Made by a program: the position numbers and the translations under genes
The notes under the pieces: model-generated
Database searches by the model: none
Told to the model about the DNA's origin: nothing
The model's input: the letters and a program-made list of their open reading frames with translations, nothing else
Assembly: GCF_003990725.2 (NCBI RefSeq)
Contig: NZ_CP030064.1
Coordinates: 310,001 to 374,000, forward strand
Length of the DNA: 64,000 bases
Reading direction: 5' to 3'
Source: Halorubrum sp. PV6
GTDB taxonomy: Archaea; Halobacteriota; Halobacteria; Halobacteriales; Haloferacaceae
Shown here: piece by piece, positions 11,340-25,213 of the stretch
Layout: every line of letters starts with the position of its first letter
How positions within the stretch are numbered: position 1 is the stretch's first letter

Positions 11340-12785
11340 TCACCGCTCCGGGTGGGTCGGCCCGTCGAAGCCGCCGCGAACGAGGGGCTTCGCGACGTGG
11401 CGCCGGGCGCTCGGCGGCACCTCGTACCAGCCGGGCGCAAGGTCGCGGTCGACGCCGACCGCGACCTTCCCCGGCGCGTCGGTGCCGCAGTCGCGACAGC
11501 GGTACCCCTGTCCCCGACCGGCCGAGGACATCGACCGCTCGCAGTCGGGACAGGTCGGGACGACGCGTTCCGTCTCGCGGAGGTCGCGTACGGCGAACTT
11601 CTCTACTTTCAACGTCGCCGTCTCGCCGCTACCTGCCTCGTCGCCTCCGGCGTCGCCCGTGGCCGGGCGGACCTCGTGTTCGCCACAGAGCGTCACCCGG
11701 TCGCCGGGGCGGAGCGCCCGAACGCGGTCGCGGAACCGGCCGGTCGGTTTAAAAGCCACACACCGGAGCCGCGACGCCGGGTCGTCGTCGGGCGCCCCGT
11801 CCGGCGCCGCCACGTCGACGTGGACGTGTCCCCCGCGTTTCGTCTCCGGGTCGCTCGCGACGACCCCCTCGACGCGGTACCCGGCGCCGTCGCGGAGGTC
11901 GCCGATGACACCAGCCGCGAGGTGGGCGTCGGTCCCCTGGTTCGTCAGGAAGGTCGCGGCGCGCTCGACCGGTTCGCTCTCGATGGCCGCGGCGACCTCG
12001 CGACACGCCGCGGCGTCGTCGCCGCGGATACCGTGGAGGATCGGTCCGGGGGCGTTCGGGACACAGACCGTCTCGCCCGTGTCGCGGTCGACGGTGTCCC
12101 AGACGACCGGGTACCCCCGGTCGGCGGCGGCGAAGACGCTCTCGGCGTCGACGTCGCGCGGCGTCCCGCAGCGGTCCAGCTCGCGATACGAGATGCGCTC
12201 GACGGTCCAGTCGCCGAACGCGCCCGCGGCGCCGACCGCTGCGAGCGCGCCGATCCGGCCGCGGCCGGCGACCGCCGTTTCGGGGGTCTCCCCGCCGGTC
12301 CCGAACGCCGCGTGTCGGTACCCGTGTCCGTCGGCGATGTCGAGCGCGTCGTCGAGCGAGAGCCGATGCCGGAGCGCGCGCCGGGCGAACGCGGCCACGT
12401 CGTCCGGAACCGTCACCCCCTCCGGGAGGAGAGTATCTGGCACGCACTCGCCGTCCGGGTCGCGCGGGTCGGCGGTCGTCGCGGCCGCGCCCAGGTCGGC
12501 GACGACGACGCCGGGCGACGTTCGAGGGTCGTCGACCGCCGCGAACTCGCGGACCGTCTCGGCGGCGCGCTCGAACGCCGCGTCGGGGTCGACGCCCGAG
12601 ACGTGGAGCGCGACCGCGGCGTTGCCGCGCGTCTTGTGTTTCACCGCCGGGTTGAGCCGGACGAGGAGGCGGCGACGGACGCGTCCCCCGGTCGCAGCGA
12701 GCCGCTCGGCCAGCCGCGCGCCGACGTAGGTCGTACACATCCCCTGCTCGCGGGAGTCGGTGTCGTCGACGGCGACGATGAGCAT
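11340..12785 (-). CDS. tiaS: tRNA(Ile2) 2-agmatinylcytidine synthetase TiaS
   Basis: 481 aa. It makes agmatidine at C34 of the CAU-anticodon isoleucine tRNA, using ATP and agmatine, so that the tRNA reads AUA and not AUG. The N-terminal TCKD/kinase-like motif VDDTDSREQGMCTTYVG is clear, an OB-fold follows (RLRCVAFKPTGRFRDRVRAL and on), and a C-terminal zinc ribbon has CPDC ... CRDC. Start taken at MLIVAVDD (12785), matching the short N-terminus of the family; an ATG at 12794 would add three residues. It is convergent with the beta-propeller gene. A probable substrate tRNA lies at 53004-53078. Confidence 0.95.
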   Translation of the reverse strand: MLIVAVDDTDSREQGMCTTYVGARLAERLAATGGRVRRRLLVRLNPAVKHKTRGNAAVALHVSGVDPDAAFERAAETVREFAAVDDPRTSPGVVVADLGAAATTADPRDPDGECVPDTLLPEGVTVPDDVAAFARRALRHRLSLDDALDIADGHGYRHAAFGTGGETPETAVAGRGRIGALAAVGAAGAFGDWTVERISYRELDRCGTPRDVDAESVFAAADRGYPVVWDTVDRDTGETVCVPNAPGPILHGIRGDDAAACREVAAAIESEPVERAATFLTNQGTDAHLAAGVIGDLRDGAGYRVEGVVASDPETKRGGHVHVDVAAPDGAPDDDPASRLRCVAFKPTGRFRDRVRALRPGDRVTLCGEHEVRPATGDAGGDEAGSGETATLKVEKFAVRDLRETERVVPTCPDCERSMSSAGRGQGYRCRDCGTDAPGKVAVGVDRDLAPGWYEVPPSARRHVAKPLVRGGFDGPTHPER

Positions 12786-12932
12786 ACGCGCCATTTCAGA
12801 CACCCGGACAAACCGGTTTCGGCGCGCGTGCGCCGGCGGGCGGCACCGCGACGTTATATAAGTATGCCGACACCGAGAACCGCGAAAACCGCAAGCGTGC
12901 GGCGGTTTCGTGTGGACGCAAGCGACACAATG

Positions 12933-12940
12933 CATATATA
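12933..12940 (+). promoter_or_regulatory. TATA-like box of the HTH regulator gene
   Basis: CATATATA ends 24 bp before the ATG at 12964, the spacing of a leaderless haloarchaeal promoter. A second AT-rich element (GTTATATAAG, 12853-12862) lies further up and, read on the minus strand, could serve tiaS with a short leader. Confidence 0.55.
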
Positions 12941-12963
12941 CGGCGAGCGGCTTATCTGCGGGT

Positions 12964-13935
12964 ATGACCCGGACTGCGCTGATCGAGAACATCACCGCGA
13001 TGTTGGAGGACGCGGGGTTCCTCGTCAGCGACCGGTGTGCGATCCGGCCCAAGAGCTTCGACGTGGCGGCGCGCCGCGGCGAGGACCTCGTGCTGCTGAA
13101 AATCCTCGGCAACGTCGACGCGCTCGACGCGGAGACCGGCGCGGAGATGCGCCGACTCGGGGAGTACCTGCAGGCGACGCCGATGGTCATCGGCGTTCGC
13201 ACCCGCGACGAAGACCTCAAACCCGGCGTCGTCTACTTCCGTCACGGCGTCCCGGTGATAAACCCCGACACCGGCTACGACCTGTTCGTCGAGGGGATGC
13301 CGCCGCTCATCTACGCCGCGCCCGGCGGCCTCTACGTCAGCCTCGACGGCGACCTGCTGGCCGACGAGCGAGAGGACCGCGGCTGGTCGCTCGGGCGCCT
13401 CGCGACCGAGTTGGGCGTCTCGCGGCGCACCGTCTCGAAGTACGAGGACGGGATGAACGCCTCCATCGAAGTGGCGATCCAGCTCGAAGAGCTGTTCAAC
13501 GAGCCGTTCTCCAGCCCGGTCGACGTGCTCGGCGGTGCGAGCGACGTGCGCGACGCCGACCCGACGCCGAAGGCGCCGGAGACCGACCCGGACGACGAGC
13601 ACGTCCTCCACGTGTTGACGAACGCCGGCTTCACCGTCCACCCGACGGCCCGCGCGCCTTTTAAAGCCGTCTCCGAAGACGAGGGGAGCGCGGTGACGCG
13701 GGTGCTCACTGGCCACTCGACGTTCACGCCGGCGGCGGAGAAGCGCGCGCGCATCATGTCCTCAATCGGGGAGGTGGCCGGCACTCGCTCGGTCTACTTC
13801 ACCGAGGAGGACGCGAAACGCGAGTCGGTCGACGGGACCGCACTCGTCTCCTGTGAGGAGCTCGCCGGTATCTCCGATCCGGCGGAGATTCGCGAACTCA
13901 TTCGCGACCGCGCGGAAGAGCCGTCCGAAGCCTGA
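12964..13935 (+). CDS. Archaeal HTH-type transcriptional regulator (UPF/MF_00584-like)
   Basis: 323 aa. The N-terminal domain resembles a restriction-endonuclease-like fold ([20 protein letters not shown], about 31-50). A Cro/XRE-type helix-turn-helix is at about 130-182 ([20 protein letters not shown]). A second copy-like domain follows in the C-terminal third ([20 protein letters not shown]). This arrangement matches a conserved archaeal 'putative HTH-type transcriptional regulatory protein' family. Start ATG at 12964 agrees with the TATA-like box. The targets are unknown; the gene is divergent from tiaS and convergent with the MinD-like gene. Confidence 0.85.
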
Positions 13936-14000: not shown

Positions 14001-15503
14001 CTACCGGCCGAGGAGCCGACTGAAGAAGCCGCCGTCGTCGTCGTCTTCGTCGCGCTCGTCGTCGTCGGCTTTGTCGCCCTCCGCGTCGTCATCCGAGAGG
14101 ACGGTGTTCATGGTTCCGGTGTCGTCGTCACGGAACGGCACGCTGCCGGCGAGTTCGTCGTCGATGTCCGACTGCTCCGGCGTGCGGCCGGTCGCCGAGT
14201 CCGTCTCGGTGTCGTCGGACTCCTCGGACTCGGCCGCCGCAGACTCCGTTTCGTCGTCGAACGCGTCCGGTTCGAGGTCCGATTCGATCATCGCTTCGAG
14301 GTCGTCGCCGTCGACGTGCCCCTCTCCGACCGTCTCTGTCTCGCCGTCCACGGCGTCGACCGCCGGGGATTCCGCGTCGCTCGCGTCGTCGACCCCCGCG
14401 TCGGTCCCCTCCTCGGGGTCGACCGCTTCGGCCTCGGGGTCGCTCGTCGACTCCTCGTCGGTCTCGACGGGCGACTCCGCGGCGACGATGATGTCCTCCT
14501 CGTCGCCCGGTTCGCCGAGGCCAGCCCGTTCGGCTTCGGCGACGATGATGTCCTCGCCGTCCTCGGCGTCGTCGTCGTCGGCGTCGTCGGGCTCATCGCC
14601 TGCGTCGTCGGTGTCCTCGGGCTCGTCCGGTTCGGCGGCGTCAGCGCCCTCATCCGTCTCACGCTCGTCTGGGTCGTCGGTCGACGCAGCCGCTTCGTCG
14701 GCCGACGCAACCCCCTCGTCGCTCGATTCGCTCTCGGTCGGCGTCTCGTCTTCCCCTTCCGTGTCGACGGAATCGAGGCCCGGACCGGGTATCGTCGCGC
14801 CGGTGAGCGTCCGCGTCAGGTCGCGGTAGGCGCGGGTCGCGGCGGAGTCGGGGGCGAGAAGCGGCAGGGGGTCGCTCGACTCGGACGCGCGCAACACCGC
14901 GACATCTTCCGGAATCCGTCCGACGACCGGGGCGTCGAGCCACTGCTCGACCGCGTCGATCGGAGCGTCGCTCGCGGCGGTCGCGGGGTCGAGACGGGTG
15001 ATCGCCGCGCCCGCGACGCTGCCGCCGAGCCGTTCGGTCAGCTGTCGGGTCTTCTCGGTGTCGCCGAGGGCGCTCCGCTCGGGCGTGGAGACGAGGAGCG
15101 TCTCGTCCGCGAGGCCGAGCGGGAGCGTGGAGTCGTGTGAGAGCCCCGCGCCCGCGTCGATGAACACGAAGTCGGCGTCCTCGAAGGCGTCGACGACCTC
15201 GCGGAGTCCGGACGGGTCGGCCGCCGCGTACGCGTCGAGCGCCACGGCGCCGGGGACGACGCGGAGCCCCACGGGCCCCTCGTGGACCGCCTCGCGAGGC
15301 GACGCCTCGCCCGCCAGCAAGTCGTGGAGGGTGACTCCCTCGACGCTCACGCCCAAGGCCTCCGCGAGGTTCGCCATGCCGAGGTCGGCGTCGATTGCGA
15401 CGACGTCCGCGCCGGAATCGGCCAGTATCGTCGCGATTGCCGCGGTCGTGGTGGTCTTTCCGACCCCACCTTTCGCTGACGCGACCGCATACACCGTTAC
15501 CAT
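14001..15503 (-). CDS. MinD/ParA-type ATPase with long acidic tail and C-terminal amphipathic segment
   Basis: 500 aa. Residues 1-240 form a MinD-type ATPase with a deviant Walker A KGGVGKTTT (K11, K16), switch region DADLGMANLAEAL, and FIDAGAG in place of Walker B. Residues about 245-485 are extremely Asp/Glu/Ser/Thr-rich and probably disordered, with the segment EDIIVAEAE / EDIIVAAES occurring twice. The last ten residues, GGFFSRLLGR, form a short basic amphipathic helix like the membrane-targeting end of MinD. From memory, Haloferax MinD4, which positions the chemosensory array and motility machinery, has such a tail and lies near the ATP synthase genes. The minus-strand TATA-like ATTTAAG at 15528-15535 fits a leaderless start. 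Confidence 0.85.
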   Translation of the reverse strand: MVTVYAVASAKGGVGKTTTTAAIATILADSGADVVAIDADLGMANLAEALGVSVEGVTLHDLLAGEASPREAVHEGPVGLRVVPGAVALDAYAAADPSGLREVVDAFEDADFVFIDAGAGLSHDSTLPLGLADETLLVSTPERSALGDTEKTRQLTERLGGSVAGAAITRLDPATAASDAPIDAVEQWLDAPVVGRIPEDVAVLRASESSDPLPLLAPDSAATRAYRDLTRTLTGATIPGPGLDSVDTEGEDETPTESESSDEGVASADEAAASTDDPDERETDEGADAAEPDEPEDTDDAGDEPDDADDDDAEDGEDIIVAEAERAGLGEPGDEEDIIVAAESPVETDEESTSDPEAEAVDPEEGTDAGVDDASDAESPAVDAVDGETETVGEGHVDGDDLEAMIESDLEPDAFDDETESAAAESEESDDTETDSATGRTPEQSDIDDELAGSVPFRDDDTGTMNTVLSDDDAEGDKADDDERDEDDDDGGFFSRLLGR

Positions 15504-15620
15504 ACGGTGACGGACCGGCGACTGCTACTTAAATGTAGGCGGCAATCGACCGATCGAGGCGGCGTTTCGGCGCGAGCGACTGCTCGATCCGGGCGAATCA
15601 CCCGCGCACTTTCGCAAACA

Positions 15621-15630
15621 CCTTATACAT
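15621..15630 (+). promoter_or_regulatory. Promoter of the ATP synthase operon
   Basis: CCTTATACAT, preceded by an A-rich GCAAACA stretch that could be a BRE, lies 30-39 bp before the atpH ATG at 15660. Transcription would begin within a few bases of the start codon. Confidence 0.6.
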
Positions 15631-15659
15631 CGCTTGTAGAGTTTCAGGCGATTAGTAGT

Positions 15660-16016
15660 ATGGCGAGACCAGAGGTGCTCGACCGGATCAAGGAGGCTGA
15701 ACGGGAGGCGGACGAGATCATCGCGGAGGCGGAATCGGACGCCGACGAGCGCCTCGCAGAGGCTCGACGGCGCGCGGACGAGATCCGCGCCGAGGCCGAG
15801 GAGGAGGCGGAGTCCGAGGCCGAGACGCGACTCGAGACGGCCCGCGACGAAATCGAGGACCGCCGCGAGGAGATCCTCGAATCGGGTCGCTCCGACCGCG
15901 ACGAGCTCGAACGCGAGGCCCGCGACCGCGTGGACACGGCCGTCGACTACGCCGTCGAACGGTTCGAAGAAGCGGTGAACCAACAGGCCGAGGAGGCGGT
16001 GGATGCTCAGGCCTGA
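15660..16016 (+). CDS. atpH: A-type ATP synthase subunit H (peripheral stalk)
   Basis: 118 aa, almost entirely one long charged helix (DRIKEAEREADEIIAEAESD and on), as in the AhaH peripheral-stalk subunit. With subunit E it forms the stator linking the A1 head to subunit I in the membrane. Start at ATG 15660, just after the promoter; the upstream in-frame extension has no haloarchaeal composition. Its end overlaps the atpI start at 16003 by 14 bases, so the two are probably translationally coupled. Confidence 0.9.
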   Translation: MARPEVLDRIKEAEREADEIIAEAESDADERLAEARRRADEIRAEAEEEAESEAETRLETARDEIEDRREEILESGRSDRDELEREARDRVDTAVDYAVERFEEAVNQQAEEAVDAQA

Positions 16017-18192
16017 GCGGATGAGCAAGGTGTCGGTGACGGGCTCGAAGCGCGTCATCGACGACGTGATCGAAGCAACGTACGAACACCACTCCCTGCA
16101 CGTCACCGACTACGACGAGCGCTACGAGGGGTTCGAGCCCGGCGAGTCGCTCGACGGCGCGGAGACGGTCAACGAGAAGCTCGTCACCGTCCGCTCGCTG
16201 GAGAGCATCCTCGGCGTCGAGGGCGGCGAGGCCGACGCGGCCCGCCACCTCGACGACGAGGCGCTCGAAGCGGAACTCGCGGACGTGCGCGAACGGGTCA
16301 ACGACCTCAACGACCGGCGCGACGACCTGAAAAGCGACATCCGCGACCGCGAAGAGGAGATCGACCGGATGGAGCCGTTCGCGGATCTGGGCATCGAACT
16401 CGACCTGCTCGGCGGCTACGACTCGCTCGAAGTCGTCGTCGGGGAGGCGAAGCCGGACGCCGTCGAGGCGACGCTCGCGGACGCCGACGGCATCGACTCG
16501 TTCGAGGTGTTCGCCGGCAGCGACGTCGTCGCCATCTTCGCGCGACCCGCAGACGGCGCCGACGACGGGGTCTTACAGGACTCGCTCGTCGGCGTCGACA
16601 TCGCGCTGCTGGAGGTCCCGTCGGCGACGGCCAGCCCGAGCGAGTACGTCGCGGAACTGGAACGCGAACGCGACGCGCTCCAGAACGACCTCGACGACGT
16701 GACCGCCGAGCTCGACGCGGTCAAAGAGGAGGCGGCCGGCTTCCTCCTGCGCGCCGAGGAACAGCTCACTATCGAGGCCGAAAAGAAGCAGGCGCCCCTC
16801 TCGTTTGCGACCACAGAGAACGCCTTCATCGCCGAAGGCTGGGTTCCGACGTCGACGTTCGGCGACCTCAAGACGGCCATCACCGAGGCGGTCGGTGACC
16901 ACGCCGAGGTCGAAGAGCTCGAGCGCGCGTCGTTCACGCCCGACGGCGACCACCACACCGAGGCGGTCGCGGACGGCGGAGCGGGCCCCAAGGCCGCCAC
17001 CGACGGCGGCCACGCGGCACAGGGCGACGACGACCCGCCGGTCGTCCAGGACAACGCGGGCGCGGCGGGCCCGTTCGAACTGCTCGTACAGGGGTTCGGC
17101 CGACCGAAGTACTCGGAGTTCGACCCGACGCTTCTGGTCTTCCTCACGTTCCCGCTCATGTTCGGCTTCATGATCGGCGACGTGGGGTACGGCGTGCTGT
17201 ACGCCGCCATCGGCGTGTTCCTGTACAGCCGATACGAGGGGACGTTCCGCGAACTTGGCGCCGTCGCGATGTGGGCGGGCGGCTTCACGATCCTCTTTGG
17301 GATATACTTCGGGATCGACGTGTTCGGCTACCACGCCTACCAGCTGCTGCCCGGTGACATCCACTGGCCCGTCGACGGGAAGGGGCTGTCCCCGGCCGAC
17401 ATCGACTGGGCGCTGTCGTTCCTCGTCGTGAGCGTGCTGTTCGGGCTCGCACACCTGAACGTGGGACACGTCCTCTCGTTCGTGAGCAACTACCAGCAGC
17501 ACGACCTGAAACACGCGCTGTACGAGGGCGGCTCGTGGCTGCTGATCCTCAACGGCGCGTGGATCTGGATCTTCAGCCAGCACGTCCCCGGTCCGAAGCC
17601 GGACTTCCTGTTTGAGTCGTTCTCGATTCTGACCTTCGGAGCGGTGTCGTTCGGCGGCTTCCCGGTCGCGGTCGGGTACGCCGCCATCGTAGCGATCCTC
17701 TTGGGCATCGTCCTGCTCGCCATCGGTGAGCCGCCGGAGCTCGCCGAGGTGCTCTCGCCGGTCGTCAACGTCATCTCGTACGCTCGGATCATGGCCGTGC
17801 TGCTCGCGAAGGGCGGGATGGCGCTCGCCGTGAACCTGCTCGCGTTCGGCGCCTACATCGACGAGGGCGGCGAAGGGAGCTTCCACTTCATCTTCACGAA
17901 CAACTACCTCGTCAACGAGGTGCAAGCGGAGGCCAGCAAGGAGCTGGTGTTCGCCGGCATGACGACCGCCTTCACCCCGGAAGCCGGTGCGGTCGGCATC
18001 CTCGCGCTCGTCGCGGGTATCGTCGTCGCGGTCGTCGGGCACATCGTCGTCCTGCTGCTCGGCGTCACGTCCGCCGGCATTCAGGCGGTGCGTCTCGAGT
18101 ACGTGGAGTTCTTCGGGAACTTCTACGAGGGCGGCGGCGACAGCTACCTGCCGTTCGGCTACGACCGCCAGTACACCACGAACGACGACTGA
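16003..18192 (+). CDS. atpI: A-type ATP synthase subunit I
   Basis: 729 aa, the normal size of the archaeal subunit I/a. A cytoplasmic N-terminal half (1-350) contains coiled-coil segments that receive the peripheral stalks and an Asp/Gly-rich insert (about 310-350). The C-terminal half has about seven to eight membrane segments forming the ion half-channels next to the K ring (for example YSEFDPTLLVFLTFPLMFGF and VVNVISYARIMAVLLAKG, which holds the conserved Arg). The start MLRPERMSKVSVTGSKR overlaps atpH. A 208-bp gap follows before atpK. Confidence 0.95.
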   Translation: MLRPERMSKVSVTGSKRVIDDVIEATYEHHSLHVTDYDERYEGFEPGESLDGAETVNEKLVTVRSLESILGVEGGEADAARHLDDEALEAELADVRERVNDLNDRRDDLKSDIRDREEEIDRMEPFADLGIELDLLGGYDSLEVVVGEAKPDAVEATLADADGIDSFEVFAGSDVVAIFARPADGADDGVLQDSLVGVDIALLEVPSATASPSEYVAELERERDALQNDLDDVTAELDAVKEEAAGFLLRAEEQLTIEAEKKQAPLSFATTENAFIAEGWVPTSTFGDLKTAITEAVGDHAEVEELERASFTPDGDHHTEAVADGGAGPKAATDGGHAAQGDDDPPVVQDNAGAAGPFELLVQGFGRPKYSEFDPTLLVFLTFPLMFGFMIGDVGYGVLYAAIGVFLYSRYEGTFRELGAVAMWAGGFTILFGIYFGIDVFGYHAYQLLPGDIHWPVDGKGLSPADIDWALSFLVVSVLFGLAHLNVGHVLSFVSNYQQHDLKHALYEGGSWLLILNGAWIWIFSQHVPGPKPDFLFESFSILTFGAVSFGGFPVAVGYAAIVAILLGIVLLAIGEPPELAEVLSPVVNVISYARIMAVLLAKGGMALAVNLLAFGAYIDEGGEGSFHFIFTNNYLVNEVQAEASKELVFAGMTTAFTPEAGAVGILALVAGIVVAVVGHIVVLLLGVTSAGIQAVRLEYVEFFGNFYEGGGDSYLPFGYDRQYTTNDD

Positions 18193-18337
18193 CGCCGTCC
18201 GGGCTTCGTCCGGCTCGGCAGTCCTGTCGGTTCGCCGACCGTTCGACTCCGTCGCCCGACGTTTCGAGGCGGAGACCGTTTCGCCAGTTGTTACTTTTTC
18301 GCTCGCTTTTCCCGCGCTATTCGGTCGTTTTGGGAAG

Positions 18338-18344
18338 CTTTATG
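18338..18344 (+). promoter_or_regulatory. Possible internal promoter before atpK
   Basis: CTTTATG, after a T-rich run, lies in the 208-bp gap between atpI and atpK, which is long for this tightly packed operon. A start about 25-30 bp downstream would leave a leader of roughly 30 nt. An extra promoter would help make the proteolipid in excess, but this is inference. Confidence 0.4.
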
Positions 18345-18400
18345 ACCACTGTGGAGGCAACTAGCAACTGTTCGGAGACGAGCAACCGCAACTACTACCA

Positions 18401-18652
18401 ATGCTTGAAGCTACCAACGAACTCGGGAATGCCGTACTGTCCACTGGTGGAACGCTGACTGATCCTAGCGCCGCAGCAGCCCTCGCCGTCGGGCTCGCGG
18501 CACTCGGCGCGGGCTACGCCGAGCGTGGCATCGGTTCGGCCGCCGTCGGTGCGATGGCCGAAGACGACGACCTCTTCGTCAACGGGCTCATCCTGACGGT
18601 GCTTCCCGAGACGATTGTCATCCTCGCACTCGTCGTCGTCTTCATCGTCTGA
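18401..18652 (+). CDS. atpK: A-type ATP synthase proteolipid subunit K
   Basis: 83 aa rotor-ring subunit with two hydrophobic helices (about 22-50 and 58-83) joined by the polar loop YAERGIGSAAVGAMAEDDD. The ion-binding carboxylate is E70 in ILTVLPETIVIL. The Gly/Ala-rich first helix is typical of the c-ring interface. This is a two-helix form with one carboxylate per hairpin. It lies between atpI and atpE, and the gap upstream may carry its own promoter. Confidence 0.95.
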   Translation: MLEATNELGNAVLSTGGTLTDPSAAAALAVGLAALGAGYAERGIGSAAVGAMAEDDDLFVNGLILTVLPETIVILALVVVFIV

Positions 18653-18673
18653 GCGGCACTTCCTTTCACACCA

Positions 18674-19249
18674 ATGAGTTTGGACACTGTCGTTGAGGAC
18701 GTTCGAGACGAAGCCCGCGCGCGTGCAGAGGAGATCCGCGAGGCCGCCGAGTCCGAGGCCGACGAGATCGTCGCCGACGCGGAGGCCGACGCCGAGCGCA
18801 TCCGTGAGGAGCGGCTCGCCGAGGTCGACCGTCAGATCGACCAAGAGCGCGAGCAGACGCTCTCTTCGGCCAAGCTCGAGGCCAAACAAGAGCGACTCGG
18901 CGCCCGCCGTGACGTCTTAGAAGACGTCCACGACGACGTTGAGGCCGCCATCGAGGGGCTCGACGGCGACGACCGCCGCGAGCTCACCGAAACGCTACTC
19001 GACGCGACCCTCGCGGAGTTCGACGACGATGACGTCGCCATCTACACCCGCGCCGAAGATGTCGAACTCGTCGAGGAGCTCGTCGCGGACCGTGACGCCA
19101 CGGTCGACGGCGAAGTCGAGTGCCTCGGCGGGATCGTCGCGGAGAGCGACACCTCTCGCGTTCGCGTGAACAACACGTTCGACTCGATCCTGGACTCCGT
19201 CTGGGACGACGAGTTGAAGAACATCTCGGAGCGACTGTTCGACCAATGA
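18674..19249 (+). CDS. atpE: A-type ATP synthase subunit E
   Basis: 191 aa. A long N-terminal charged helix (about 1-85) is followed by a globular C-terminal domain (LTETLLDATLAEFDDDDVAI and RVNNTFDSILDSVWDD), as in the archaeal stalk subunit E that pairs with H. The stop overlaps the start of atpC (ATGA at 19246-19249), indicating coupled translation. Confidence 0.94.
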   Translation: MSLDTVVEDVRDEARARAEEIREAAESEADEIVADAEADAERIREERLAEVDRQIDQEREQTLSSAKLEAKQERLGARRDVLEDVHDDVEAAIEGLDGDDRRELTETLLDATLAEFDDDDVAIYTRAEDVELVEELVADRDATVDGEVECLGGIVAESDTSRVRVNNTFDSILDSVWDDELKNISERLFDQ

Positions 19250-20292
19250 GCGCCGCCGGGAGCTCGAACCCAGAGTACGTGGTCGCGCGGGTTCGTGCCC
19301 GCCGTGGCAGCCTGTACGGCGACGAAGAGTACCGGAAGCTGACGCGGATGGGCCCCGCCGAGATCGCCCGGTTCATGGAGGAGTCGAGCTACGGCGCGGA
19401 CATCAACGCGCTCGGCAGTCGCCACGACGGCGTGGATCTGATCGAGTACGCGCTGAACCGCAACCTCGCCGACCAGTTCGACGACATCCTCGACTGGAGC
19501 GACGGGTCGCTGTACGGCCTCATCGCCCGGTACCTCCGGAAGTTCGACGCTTGGAACGTGAAGACGGTCATCCGCGGCGCTTACACGAACGCGGATCAGG
19601 CGGCCATCGAGGTCGACCTCATCCGCGCCGGCGAGTTCGACGACCGCCGGATTCGGCGCCTGCTCGAGGCCGACTCGATCGACGCTATCGTCGAGGTGCT
19701 CGAAGACACCATCTACGGCGATCCGCTCGAAGCGGCGTACGCCGAGTACGAGGAGACGAACGTGTTGGTGCCACTCGAGAACGCCGTCGACCGCGCGTTC
19801 TACGAACGGCTCCTGTCGGGACTCGGCGGCAACGAGCCGACCCGCCAGTACGAGGCGTTCCTGAAAGCGGAGGTCGACTTCCGAAACGCCGCGAACGCCC
19901 TCCGGCTCGCCCGGTCGGGCGCGGACATCGACCCGGCGGAGTACTTCATCGAGGGCGGCGACCTGTTCACTCGCGGGACGCTCGCGCGGCTCGCGCGCAA
20001 CCTCGACGACCTCGTGGAGTACATCGGAGACAGCCAGTACGCCGACGAACTCGGTCCCGCGCTGCGCGAACTCGAGGAGGCGGACAGCCTCATCGCGTTC
20101 GAGCACGCGACCGACGCCGCCCTGCTGGCGTACGGCGACCAGCTCGGAACGATCCACCCGGTGTCGATCACGCCGATCATCTCGTACATCCTCGCCAAGG
20201 AGCGCGAGGTCGAGAACATCCGCGCGATCGCCCGCGGGAAGGAGGCCGGGCTGCCGGTCGACCAGATCGAATCGGAGCTGGTGATAACATGA
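19246..20292 (+). CDS. atpC: A-type ATP synthase subunit C
   Basis: 348 aa funnel-shaped subunit that joins the central rotor stalk to the proteolipid ring. The YVVARVRARRGSLYGDEEYR start and the LIEYALNRNLADQFDDILDW and ITPIISYILAKEREVENIRA segments match the C/AC39 family. The start overlaps the atpE stop by four bases and the end overlaps the atpF start. Upstream in-frame reading is a shadow of atpE. Confidence 0.95.
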   Translation: MSAAGSSNPEYVVARVRARRGSLYGDEEYRKLTRMGPAEIARFMEESSYGADINALGSRHDGVDLIEYALNRNLADQFDDILDWSDGSLYGLIARYLRKFDAWNVKTVIRGAYTNADQAAIEVDLIRAGEFDDRRIRRLLEADSIDAIVEVLEDTIYGDPLEAAYAEYEETNVLVPLENAVDRAFYERLLSGLGGNEPTRQYEAFLKAEVDFRNAANALRLARSGADIDPAEYFIEGGDLFTRGTLARLARNLDDLVEYIGDSQYADELGPALRELEEADSLIAFEHATDAALLAYGDQLGTIHPVSITPIISYILAKEREVENIRAIARGKEAGLPVDQIESELVIT

Positions 20293-20618
20293 GCCAGGAG
20301 ATCGCCGTCGTCGGGAGCCCCGACTTTACGACTGGGTTCCGGCTCGCCGGCGTGCGGAAGTTCGAGGACGTACCGGACGACGAGAAAGACGAGCGGCTCG
20401 ACGACGCCGTCGAACGAACCCTCGACGACGAGGAGACGGGCATCATCGTGATGCACACCGACGACCTCGACCACCTCTCGCGGGGGACCCGCGAGGCGGT
20501 GGAGGGGAGCATCGAGCCCGTGCTCGTGACGCTCGGCGGGTCCGGCGCCGGCAGCGGCGGGCTGCGCGACCAGATCAAACGAGCCATCGGGATCGACTTG
20601 ATGGAGGAGGACGACTAA
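20289..20618 (+). CDS. atpF: A-type ATP synthase subunit F
   Basis: 109 aa CheY-like fold subunit of the central stalk ([20 protein letters not shown], then [12 protein letters not shown] and EPVLVTLGG). It binds subunit D and helps couple rotation to catalysis. The ATG lies inside the atpC end (ATGA-type overlap) and atpA follows one base after the stop, typical of the conserved C-F-A-B order. Confidence 0.95.
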
Positions 20619-20619
20619 T

Positions 20620-22395
20620 ATGAGTAAAGCAGAATCCACGGAGACCACCACGGAACACGGTGTAATCCAAAGCGTGAGCGGTCCGGTCGTGAGCGCCCGC
20701 GACCTCGACGCCCGCATGAACGACGTCGTCTACGTTGGCGACGAAGGCCTCATGGGGGAAGTGATCGAGATCGAAGGCGACATCACGACGGTTCAGGTGT
20801 ACGAGGAGACCTCCGGGGTCAGCCCCGGCGAACCCGTCGAGAACACGGGCGAGCCGCTGTCGGTGGACCTTGGTCCGGGAATGCTGGACGCCATCTACGA
20901 TGGTGTCCAGCGTCCCCTGGACGTACTGGAGGGCAAGATGGGCAGTCCGTACCTCGATCGCGGGGTCGACGCGCCCGGCATCGACCTCGACAAGGAGTGG
21001 GAGTTCGAACCCACCGTCGAGGTCGGCGACGAGGTCGGCCGCGGTGACGTGGTCGGCGTCGTCGAGGAGACGGTCACCATCGACCACAAGGTGATGGTGC
21101 CGCCGGACGCGCTCGACGAGGGCGAGACCACCGAGGTCACCGCCATCGAGTCTGGCTCGTTCGACGTCACCGAGACGGTGGCCGAGCTCGCGAACGGCAC
21201 GGACGTCTCGATGCACCAGGAGTGGCCCGTCCGCGAGGCGCGCCCCTCCGCGAACAAGAAGACGCCCCGGACGCCGCTCGTGTCCGGCCAGCGTATCCTC
21301 GACGGCCTGTTCCCCATCGCGAAGGGCGGGACGGCCGCGATTCCGGGGCCGTTCGGCTCCGGGAAGACGGTCACCCAGCACCAGCTCGCGAAGTACGCCG
21401 ACGCGGACATCATCGTCTACGTCGGCTGCGGCGAGCGCGGCAACGAGATGACCGAGGTCATCGAGGACTTCCCCGAGCTTGAGGACCCGGCCAACGGCAA
21501 CCCGCTGATGGCCCGCACCTCGCTCATCGCGAACACCTCGAACATGCCCGTCGCGGCGCGTGAGTCCTGTATCTACACGGGCATCACGATCGCCGAGTAC
21601 TACCGCGACATGGGGTACGACGTGGCGCTGATGGCCGACTCCACCTCGCGGTGGGCGGAGGCCATGCGCGAGATTTCCTCCCGACTGGAGGAGATGCCCG
21701 GTGAGGAGGGGTACCCCGCGTACCTCGCCGCCCGGCTCGCGCAGTTCTACGAGCGCGCCGGCTACTTCGAGAACGTCAACGGGACGGAGGGCTCCGTCTC
21801 GGCTATCGGCGCGGTGTCGCCGCCCGGCGGCGACTTCTCGGAGCCGGTCACGCAGAACACGCTGCGCATCGTGAAGACGTTCTGGGCGCTCGACGCGGAC
21901 CTGGCGGAACGACGCCACTTCCCGTCGATCAACTGGAACGAGTCGTACTCGCTGTACAAAGACCAGCTCGACCCGTGGTTCGAGAACGAGGTCGCCGACG
22001 ACTGGGCCGAGAAGCGCCAGTGGGCGGTCGACGTGCTCGACGAGGAGACCGAGCTACAGGAGATCGTTCAGCTCGTCGGGAAGGACGCCCTTCCGGACGA
22101 CCAGCAGCTCACGCTGGAGGTCGCCCGCTACCTGCGGGAGGCGTACCTCCAGCAGAACGCGTTCCACCCGGTGGACACGTTCTGTCCCCCGGAGAAGACG
22201 TACCTCATGCTGACGACGATCGAGACGTTCAACGATGAGGCGTTCGACGCCCTCGAAGCCGGCGTCCCCGTCGAAGAGATCGTCGATACCGAGGCCGCCC
22301 CCGGCATCAACCGGATCGGCGTCCAAGAGGACTACGAGGAGTACGTCGAGGAGCTCAAAGCGGAGATCACCGAGGAACTCCGGAGCATGTACTAA
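20620..22395 (+). CDS. atpA: A-type ATP synthase catalytic subunit A
   Basis: 591 aa catalytic subunit. The P-loop GPFGSGKT is at about 243-250. Other visible family marks are the [14 protein letters not shown] segment, [20 protein letters not shown] and [20 protein letters not shown]. The N-terminal beta barrel, the non-homologous 'bulge' domain (about 110-200) and the C-terminal helical domain are all full length, with no intein. It makes or hydrolyses ATP at the A/B interfaces on the cytoplasmic side. It lies one base after atpF and one base before atpB. Confidence 0.98.
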
Positions 22396-22396
22396 C

Positions 22397-23821
22397 ATGA
22401 AAGAGTATCAGACAATCACCGAGATCAGCGGCCCCCTCGTGTACGCCGAGGTCGACGAGGCGATCGGTTACGACGAGATCGTCGAGATCGAGACGGCACA
22501 GGGCGAGACGCTGCGCGGACAGGTGCTCGAATCCTCGGAAGGCGTCGTCGCCATCCAGGTGTTCGAGGGCACCTCCGGTATCGACCAGAACGCGTCCGTT
22601 CGCTTCTTAGGCGAGACGATGAAGATGCCCGTCACCGAGGACCTGCTCGGACGGGTTCTCGACGGCTCCGGCCGCCCGATCGACGACGGCCCCGAGATCG
22701 TTCCCGAGGAGCGTCAGGACATCGTCGGCGCGGCGATCAACCCGTACTCCCGCGAGTACCCCGAGGAGTTCATCGAGACGGGCGTCTCCGCCATCGACGG
22801 GATGAACACCCTAGTGCGCGGACAGAAACTCCCGATCTTCTCCAGTTCCGGCCAGCCGCACAGCGAACTGGCGATGCAGATCGCCCGACAGGCGAGCGTG
22901 CCGGAAGAAGAAGAGGGCGACGACGACGAGGAGGGCTCGGAGTTCGCCGTCATCTTCGGCGCGATGGGGATCACCCAGGAGGAGGCCAACGAGTTCATGG
23001 AGGACTTCGAGCGCACCGGTGCGCTGGAACGCTCCGTCGTCTTCATGAACCTCGCGGACGACCCCGCCGTCGAGCGGACGGTCACCCCGCGGATGGTGCT
23101 CACCACCGCCGAGTACCTCGCCTTCGAGAAGGATTACCACGTCCTCGTCATCCTGACGGACATGACCAACTACTGCGAGGCGCTCCGTGAGATCGGGGCG
23201 GCCCGCGAGGAGGTCCCCGGTCGACGTGGCTACCCCGGATACATGTACACCGACCTGGCGCAGCTGTACGAGCGCGCCGGGCGGATCCAGGGCCGTGAGG
23301 GCTCGGTAACCCAGATCCCGATCCTCACGATGCCGGGCGACGACGACACCCACCCGATTCCTGACCTGACCGGCTACATCACGGAAGGGCAGATCTACGT
23401 CGACCCCGACCTCAACAGTCAGGGCCTGCAGCCGCCGATCAACGTGCTCCCCAGCCTGTCGCGGCTGATGGACGACGGGATCGGCGAAGGGCTCACCCGC
23501 GAGGACCACGCCGACGTGAAAGACCAGATGTTCGCGGCGTACGCGGAGGGCGAGGACCTGCGCGACCTCGTGAACATCGTCGGTCGCGAGGCGCTCTCGG
23601 AGCTCGACAACAAGTACCTCGACTTCGCCGACGACTTCGAGTCGGAGTTCGTCGACCAGGGCTTCGACCAGAATCGGACCATCGAGGAGACGCTGGAGAT
23701 CGGCTGGGACCTGCTCTCGATGCTCCCGAAGGACGCCCTCAACCGGATCGACGAGGAGTTCATCGAGGAGTACTACCGCGAGGACGACTCCGAGCGCGAA
23801 GTCGTCGAAGCCGCCGACTAA
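22397..23821 (+). CDS. atpB: A-type ATP synthase regulatory subunit B
   Basis: 474 aa non-catalytic partner of subunit A. The region equal to the P-loop reads [18 protein letters not shown] and lacks the GxxxxGKT pattern, as expected. [20 protein letters not shown] and [20 protein letters not shown] are characteristic. An acidic insert ([12 protein letters not shown]) follows the degenerate P-loop. The ATG at 22397 overlaps nothing and sits one base after the atpA stop. A 203-bp gap follows before atpD. Confidence 0.97.
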
Positions 23822-24024
23822 CCTCACCGCTCCGGATCACTTCTTTCGCAGTTTCACCCCCCGGCCAGCCTGCCGAGCGATCCCGACGGAGTGACGGTAC
23901 GCCCCGTCACCGAGGACCCCTCTCTTTCGAGTCTGACGACGGTCGTCCGGCGTGGCGCGGTCGAGCGGGCACGTCACGACTGAAAAGAATTATCCGCTTT
24001 GGTGCGGAACGTTTCCCCAATAAG

Positions 24025-24723
24025 ATGGCCAAGGACGTCAAACCGACGCGGAAGAACCTGATGGCGATCGAAGACCGCATCGATCTCTCCGAGCGCGGTC
24101 ACGACACCCTCGAACAGAAGCGTGACGGCCTCATCATGGAGTTCATGGACATCCTCGATCAGGCGCAGGACGTCCGGTCCGACGTGTCCGAGACCTACGA
24201 CACGGCCCAGCGCAAGATCGACATGGCCCGAGCGATGGAGGGCGACGTCGCCGTCCGCGGCGCGGCCGCAGCGCTGAAAGAACACCCGGAGATCACCACG
24301 CAGTCGAAGAACATTATGGGCGTGGTCGTTCCCCAGATCGAGTCGTCGAAGGTACGAAAGAGCATCGACGAGCGCGGCTACGGGCTGCTCGGCTCCTCCG
24401 CCCGGATCGACGAGGCGGCCGACGCCTACGAGGACCTGCTGGAGAAGATCATCCTCGCGGCCGAGGTCGAGACGGCCATGAAGAAGATGCTCACCGAGAT
24501 CGAAACGACGAAGCGACGCGTGAACGCGCTGGAGTTCACGCTCCTCCCGCGGCTCTACGAGAACCAGGAGTACATCGAGCAGAAGCTCGAAGAGCAGGAG
24601 CGCGAAGAGATCTTCCGCCTGAAAAAGATCAAGGCGAAGAAGGAAGCCGAAGAGAAGGCCGAAGAGGAAGCGGCCGCCGAGTCCGAGGCCGCGGCGGTCG
24701 AAGACCCCGAACCCGCCGACTGA
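24025..24723 (+). CDS. atpD: A-type ATP synthase subunit D (central shaft)
   Basis: 232 aa. N- and C-terminal helices form the long coiled-coil rotor axle ([15 protein letters not shown] at the start and [14 protein letters not shown] further on, the classic D signature). The last 50 residues are Lys/Glu/Ala-rich and acidic, a common haloarchaeal extension. It is separated from atpB by 203 bp; an AT-rich GAATTATCC (23986-23994) about 31-39 bp before the ATG suggests its own promoter. The gap holds no other gene. Confidence 0.94.
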
Positions 24724-24828
24724 CGCCGTACACTCTGAGACTCTCGTCTGCTTGCCGACCGTCGGTTGCGTTTCTCTCGCGGCGTCTCCGTAGTCTGTTT
24801 CTGTTTTCGTTCCGCTGAGATGTGCATG

Positions 24829-24870
24829 CGTCTCGTCGTGTATATAAACGTGCGCACGTCTCGTCGTGTA
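24829..24870. repeat. 14-bp direct repeat flanking a TATA-like element
   Basis: CGTCTCGTCGTGTA occurs at 24829-24842 and again at 24857-24870, 28 bp apart. TATATAAACGTG lies between and partly within the first copy. A spacing close to three helical turns would put both copies on roughly the same DNA face, as for a dimeric regulator. No gene starts close downstream on the plus strand. Confidence 0.55.
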
Positions 24871-25213
24871 GACGACTCCCATCGCACCCCACGACTACCG
24901 GCCGTTGCTCGCCGGCCACCGTCGAGCGTCGGAGCGCCGAACGGCCTCGACGGCCCGAGCAGCCGGCGGCCGGCGGGCAGCCGTCCGAACCGACGCGAGA
25001 CGCTCATCGCGGGCCGTGCAGTCGCGCGCCGCGAGCGACCGTACCGGAGTCGTCCATTCGGGTGGCTTCCGACACGTTAGCGGGTTGTCCCGACGCGCGG
25101 CCGACTCGGCGACTGCGTCACGCGCCCGGCCGGAGTTCTTCTCGGTCGCCAGATCGGCGCGAAACTCACCCATAAGTTATCTGTGGTCGCGGGGAGGTTA
25201 TCGAGATATAGAA

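Follow-up and report, generated by a model that had tools for sequence, protein, structure and literature searches.

A probable MinD4 orthologue in Halorubrum sp. PV6 with conserved short motifs in its long acidic tail

An open reading frame in the 64,000-nucleotide stretch of Halorubrum sp. PV6 DNA analysed here (the window) very probably encodes an orthologue of MinD4, judging from sequence comparison, and loss of MinD4 tracks loss of the archaellum in the window's family. We consider it likely that the gene is minD4 and that its product joins an ATPase core and a membrane helix by a disordered tail that would dock partners for the assembly of archaella and chemosensory arrays at the cell poles. 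MinD4 is already known as a kind of protein, and the conserved tail motifs appear to be the new part. In Haloferax volcanii, MinD4 is described as oscillating, as forming polar caps in an ATPase-dependent way and as positioning archaella and chemosensory arrays (PMC11621097, PMC11588486). PMC11621097 further reports that the oscillation is independent of the ATPase motifs and that no partner resembling MinE is known for it, that MinD4 also affects CetZ1 positioning, and that motility suffers when its extended C-terminal tail is truncated. The four MinD proteins of H. volcanii are reported not to place the Z-ring, unlike bacterial MinD (PMC11588486). Among the papers listed by a literature search that covered few subscription journals, no title or abstract opening dealt with motifs in the MinD4 tail.

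The frame is uninterrupted, begins with ATG and encodes 500 amino acids, with the following features.

14001..15503, minus strand: minD4 open reading frame
14799..15503, minus strand: MinD ATPase core, residues 1-235, with the deviant Walker A motif KGGVGKTT (TIGR01969, AlphaFold2, 1hyq)
14004..14798, minus strand: acidic tail, residues 236-500, predicted to be disordered (composition, AlphaFold2)
14538..14555, minus strand: EDIIVA copy 1, residues 317-322
14481..14498, minus strand: EDIIVA copy 2, residues 336-341
14121..14159, minus strand: DELAGSVPFRDDD patch, residues 449-461, the best-conserved part of the tail apart from the C-terminus
14097..14120, minus strand: TGTMNTVL patch, residues 462-469
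14004..14033, minus strand: GGFFSRLLGR, putative membrane-targeting helix, residues 491-500

That the protein has a MinD-like ATPase core, as originally proposed, is borne out by its match to the TIGR01969 model (minD_arch), which covers residues 4-235 with 202.2 bits and barely exceeds the cut-off of 201.75. The same model finds nine matches with an E-value of 0.001 or better in the organism's own genome (3.04 Mb, two contigs), four of them with at least 68.5 bits, and the window protein is the only one over the cut-off. The best-scoring solved chains for the core were the MinD proteins of A. fulgidus (1hyq, the top match) and P. furiosus (1g3q). These archaeal chains and bacterial MinD (3q9l) share the core ATPase with the window protein by sequence, but 1hyq and 1g3q are tail-less, with 263 and 237 residues and matches covering window residues 1-236 only, and the 260-residue chain of 3q9l is without a long acidic tail. 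An AlphaFold2 model built from a 38-sequence alignment with the window protein placed first gave ten-residue pLDDT means of 89-98 across residues 1-240 and mostly below 50 in the tail, where the patches had no confident fold and a six-residue helix at 493-498 was predicted with low confidence (mean pLDDT of 60). The tail is 265 residues in length, not the 240 first given, and consists of Asp and Glu to 41%; Asp, Glu, Ser and Thr together make up 56%, so that its description as nearly all of these four residues was overstated. The two EDIIVA copies and the GGFFSRLLGR end are present as described. As a separate observation, genes of the arsA/arsD type and of the ParA family lie at 252000-264000 on the second contig of this genome (300,774 bases), a region that haloarchaeal plasmids match at 77-89% identity among the matches listed (locus L194).

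The assignment to MinD4 is supported by a tree and by gene order. In a tree of 59 rows of MinD cores, the window protein and the tailed Haloferax proteins fell into one clade of 40 rows (support 97/89), separate from a clade of 255-257-residue MinDs (100/100) and a clade of 218-222-residue proteins (100/97). The 40-row clade includes seven rows with short tails of less than about 80 residues (L067, L069-L073 and L093), and ten rows labelled 'tailed10' in the tree did not form one clade (5 changes), since further proteins belonging to that clade did not carry the label. The Haloferax sample, genus g6 with 15 genomes, was assigned via a named plasmid of H. alexandrinus, whose DNA (a 4977-base query) matched at 94-96% in seven genomes and at 83-85% in five more over all or most of its length, and only in short pieces in the remaining three; a protein search of plasmids gave nothing above 40% identity among the 60 matches listed out of 324. 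The Haloferax rows of the tree are proteins of these genomes, and their equivalence to the H. volcanii protein was drawn from gene order in one of them (G188), which reads atpA, atpB, a PAS/HTH gene, atpD, a 127-residue frame, aRF1 and minD4, with the names of aRF1 and the HTH gene read off their translations. The H. volcanii atpA is given as HVO_0316 (PMC3828320) and minD4 as HVO_0322 (PMC11588486). Because minD4 of G188 likewise lies six genes past atpA when the 127-residue frame is counted as a gene, we equate it with HVO_0322. Four Haloferax genomes each had a single MinD match with an open frame of more than 350 residues. The proposed orthology is very probable, with the window protein sitting among the tailed Haloferax proteins and apart from the other MinD clades, and with fitting gene order. 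Judged via the Haloferax genomes, H. volcanii MinD4 shares with the window protein its clade, an extended acidic tail with a [VI]PF patch, a GF[FL]-type end and linkage to the ATP synthase genes, and the Haloferax cores are 52-56% identical to the window core among the matches listed; however, it differs in lying downstream of atpD, whereas the window gene lies upstream of and divergent from atpH, and in the number of EDIIVA copies.

Conservation within the tail was counted in 44 complete tails out of 46 congeneric genomes, leaving out G008, whose contig ends inside the tail with one EDIIVA copy visible, and G224, which has no MinD4 match. G060 and G041 (no MinD frame found) and G183 (a frame running through Ns) enter no tail count, and G283 has a complete tail that stands outside every count. 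The 44 tails range from 152 to 344 residues in length. Two copies of an IIVA-type motif occur in 33 of them, one copy in four and none in seven, and the spacing between copies is exactly 19 residues in all 33 two-copy tails. A first sample, mainly the 30 best-scoring congeners, had EDIIVA in 30 of 31 tails, and the share dropped to 37/44 once G205 and another 12 congeners, most of them less closely related, were included. Together, 31 congeneric tails held 59 IIVA-type matches, whereas shuffled tails gave a mean of 0.19, and the coding pattern for [DE][DE]IIVA occurs in the 3.04 Mb genome only at the two minD4 copies, indicating that these motifs are not due to chance. The conservation of EDIIVA is limited by lineage, in that it is lacking from seven of the 44 congeneric tails and from all three tails of the two nearest genera, and among seven Haloferax tails five have none and two have a single DIIVA copy, as against two copies in the window protein. 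The seven IIVA-less congeneric tails (L200 of G205, L079 of G347, L212 and L214-L217) keep both [VI]PF and the C-terminal helix. G205, with SVPF, has no ArlD/E match, and the other six come from genomes with ArlD/E, indicating that the presence of IIVA does not follow that of the archaellum.

By contrast with the seven congeners that lack EDIIVA, none of the 44 lacks the L[AE][GE]S[VI]PF patch, which is better conserved than any other tail patch short of the C-terminus and was not mentioned in the original prediction; the coding pattern for [IV]PFRDD is found at a single place in the own genome, the DELAGSVPFRDDD patch. A similarity of this patch to the C-terminal peptide of FtsZ was also considered. 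[VI]PF is present in 7/7 Haloferax tails, as is GVYTT.L, and the TGTMNTVL patch of the window protein is probably equivalent to GVYTTSLVEE of Haloferax. Among 25 other tails of the family, [VI]PF occurs in 11, the TxL patch in eight and IIVA in three; the Haladaptatus salinisoli tail, for example, reads DDVPFQDD and ends in GLFGRIGSLFR. An I/V/L triple with acidic flanks was counted in 12 of these 25 tails against 1.9 expected, in two of five Haloferax tails (not above shuffles) and in none of the three tails of the nearest genera. Tails of genus g23 (L059 and L076) carry a repeated patch of the DVSSLIED/DVASLLDE type, which resembles DDLEAMIES of the window protein (a type present in 16 of 31 congeners) and is possibly another tail module. 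The sequence of the C-terminal end was found conserved as expected, as GFF[SG]RL[LF]GR in 44/44 congeners; a GF[FL][SR]RFLG end is present in all seven Haloferax tails and a GFF-like end in 24 of the 25 other family tails. The coding pattern for a GGFFSRLLGR-type end has its single match of the own genome in minD4. The hydrophobic moment of the helix is unexceptional for its composition, with 20% of shuffles as high. Bacterial MinD has a short C-terminal membrane helix, and the membrane-targeting sequence of H. volcanii MinD4 is said, in work attributed to Nussbaum in 2020, to be needed for oscillation.

Co-occurrence with the archaellum was scored by taking MinD4 as absent where the E-value of the best core match was weaker than 1e-39 and the archaellum as present where PF04659 (ArlD/E) matched at 1e-5 or better, absence being the complement of the 305 matching genomes in the class (86 non-matching). 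Among 135 genomes of the family, 120 have both, six MinD4 only, two ArlD/E only and seven neither, so that ArlD/E is lacking in 7/9 genomes without MinD4 versus 6/126 with it (Fisher p 4e-7, a test that overstates independence because all seven genomes lacking both come from two genera, three from g2 and four from g7, and so represent few independent events). One of the two family genomes with ArlD/E but without MinD4, G224, is a fragmented assembly that is 95% complete. Outside the family, where MinD4 calls are less sure because the cores diverge, 162 of 256 genomes have both, 48 MinD4 only, 21 ArlD/E only and 25 neither (p 5e-5). For the class as a whole (391 genomes) the corresponding numbers are 282, 54, 23 and 32 (p 2e-10). 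The loss is not one of MinDs in general, because the 255-257-residue MinD, which locus spacing suggests is MinD2, is retained in 8/9 family genomes without MinD4 (E-values 1.6e-115 to 1.3e-142).

The neighbourhood of the gene is laid out as follows.

12910..13935, plus strand: PRK04140-type HTH transcriptional regulator, convergent with minD4
15504..15659, no strand: divergent intergenic region between the minD4 frame and the atpH ATG at 15660
15660..24723, plus strand: A-type ATP synthase genes atpH to atpD (atpA 20620-22395, atpD 24025-24723)

The divergence of minD4 from the ATP synthase genes in the window is as originally described. Distances between atpA and minD4 were obtained for 80 genomes, 74 of the window's family and six others, with 13 of 93 candidates left out. 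The two genes lie within 20 kb of each other in 60 of the 80, more than 20 kb apart in 18 and on separate contigs in two. A divergent arrangement, with minD4 upstream of atpA and in the opposite orientation, was seen only in the genus of the window and the two genera closest to it (18/18, comprising 14 genomes of g1, the window's genus, three of g3 and one of g20), and minD4 is downstream of atpA in the same orientation in 42/80, including all 15 Haloferax genomes at a distance of 6-10 kb. Hence, of the conserved neighbourhood put forward for this gene, the linkage to ATP synthase stands but the divergent layout does not extend to Haloferax. Within the window's genus, atpH is divergent from minD4 at 30 of 31 loci, the 31st (L027) starting at a contig end. 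Relative to the direction of minD4, the ATP synthase genes lie 5' and the PRK04140-type regulator 3' in 31/31 loci of this genus and likewise in the three Haloferax genomes inspected, where the regulator is downstream of and convergent with minD4 but about 12-14 kb off. Because this order is common to both genera, their difference in orientation would be accounted for if the ATP synthase block had been inverted. At the three g3/g20 loci, no such regulator was found next to minD4. Adjoining the regulator in the window is a 415-residue frame at 11482-12729 (plus strand) without a Pfam match, which also accompanies the regulator downstream of minD4 in the three Haloferax genomes; the frame opposite (11340-13220) scores equally well, leaving the coding strand unsure. 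A frame at 23974-24882 (minus strand), antisense to atpD, showed 57-66% tblastn identity in several genera and was rejected as a conserved antisense neighbour, being a shadow of atpD coding rather than a gene.

The frequent proximity to atpA raises the possibility that the window protein works together with the neighbouring ATP synthase. However, order and orientation vary by lineage, a fifth or so of the distances (18/80) exceed 20 kb with two further pairs on different contigs, and minD4 and atpH are separated by a divergent intergenic region of their own; we reject such a partnership as highly improbable because gene order varies. An acidic spacer of the halophile type, which would solubilise the protein and hold the membrane helix off the core with patches that have no partners, accords with the disorder of the AlphaFold2 model and with an acidic tail more than doubling in length within one genus (152-344 residues). 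Such a spacer does not account for a patch kept in 44/44 tails, for a spacing of 19 residues in 33/33 two-copy tails or for motif counts far over those of shuffles, and we regard it as rather unlikely. The patches are read here as plausible binding or docking sites. MinD4 could also be a general cell-pole factor rather than one dedicated to motility, following the archaellum only because rod-shaped cells with polarity often retain the two together. The retention of MinD4 without ArlD/E in six of 126 family genomes and in 48 of 210 genomes with MinD4 outside the family is consistent with this, as is the effect on CetZ1 positioning (PMC11621097), but the strong joint loss in the family while the putative MinD2 is kept in 8/9 speaks against it, making it distinctly less probable than a role in assembling the polar archaellum and arrays.

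For MinD4 as an assembly factor of archaella and arrays, we envisage that the MinD core would bind ATP and dimerise and that, by analogy with bacterial MinD and with work on Haloferax MinD4, the C-terminal helix would anchor it on the inner side of the membrane, with the disordered acidic tail of 265 residues linking core and helix. The paired IIVA, [VI]PF and TxxTxL patches would most likely serve as docking sites for partners or cargo, and this docking may let MinD4 gather as polar caps and help the archaellum motor and the chemosensory arrays to assemble at the poles. More tentatively, the tail might act as a modular string in which paired IIVA, LAGS[VI]PF and TxxTxL have separate polar partners, one of them possibly the driver of MinD4 oscillation; under the same tentative reading, modules might be gained and lost singly by lineage while the [VI]PF patch and the membrane helix are kept. 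The conserved tail patches provide concrete residues to mutate and bait peptides for the oscillation partner and cargo adaptors, and the joint loss with the archaellum across the family supports a motility role of MinD4 beyond Haloferax.
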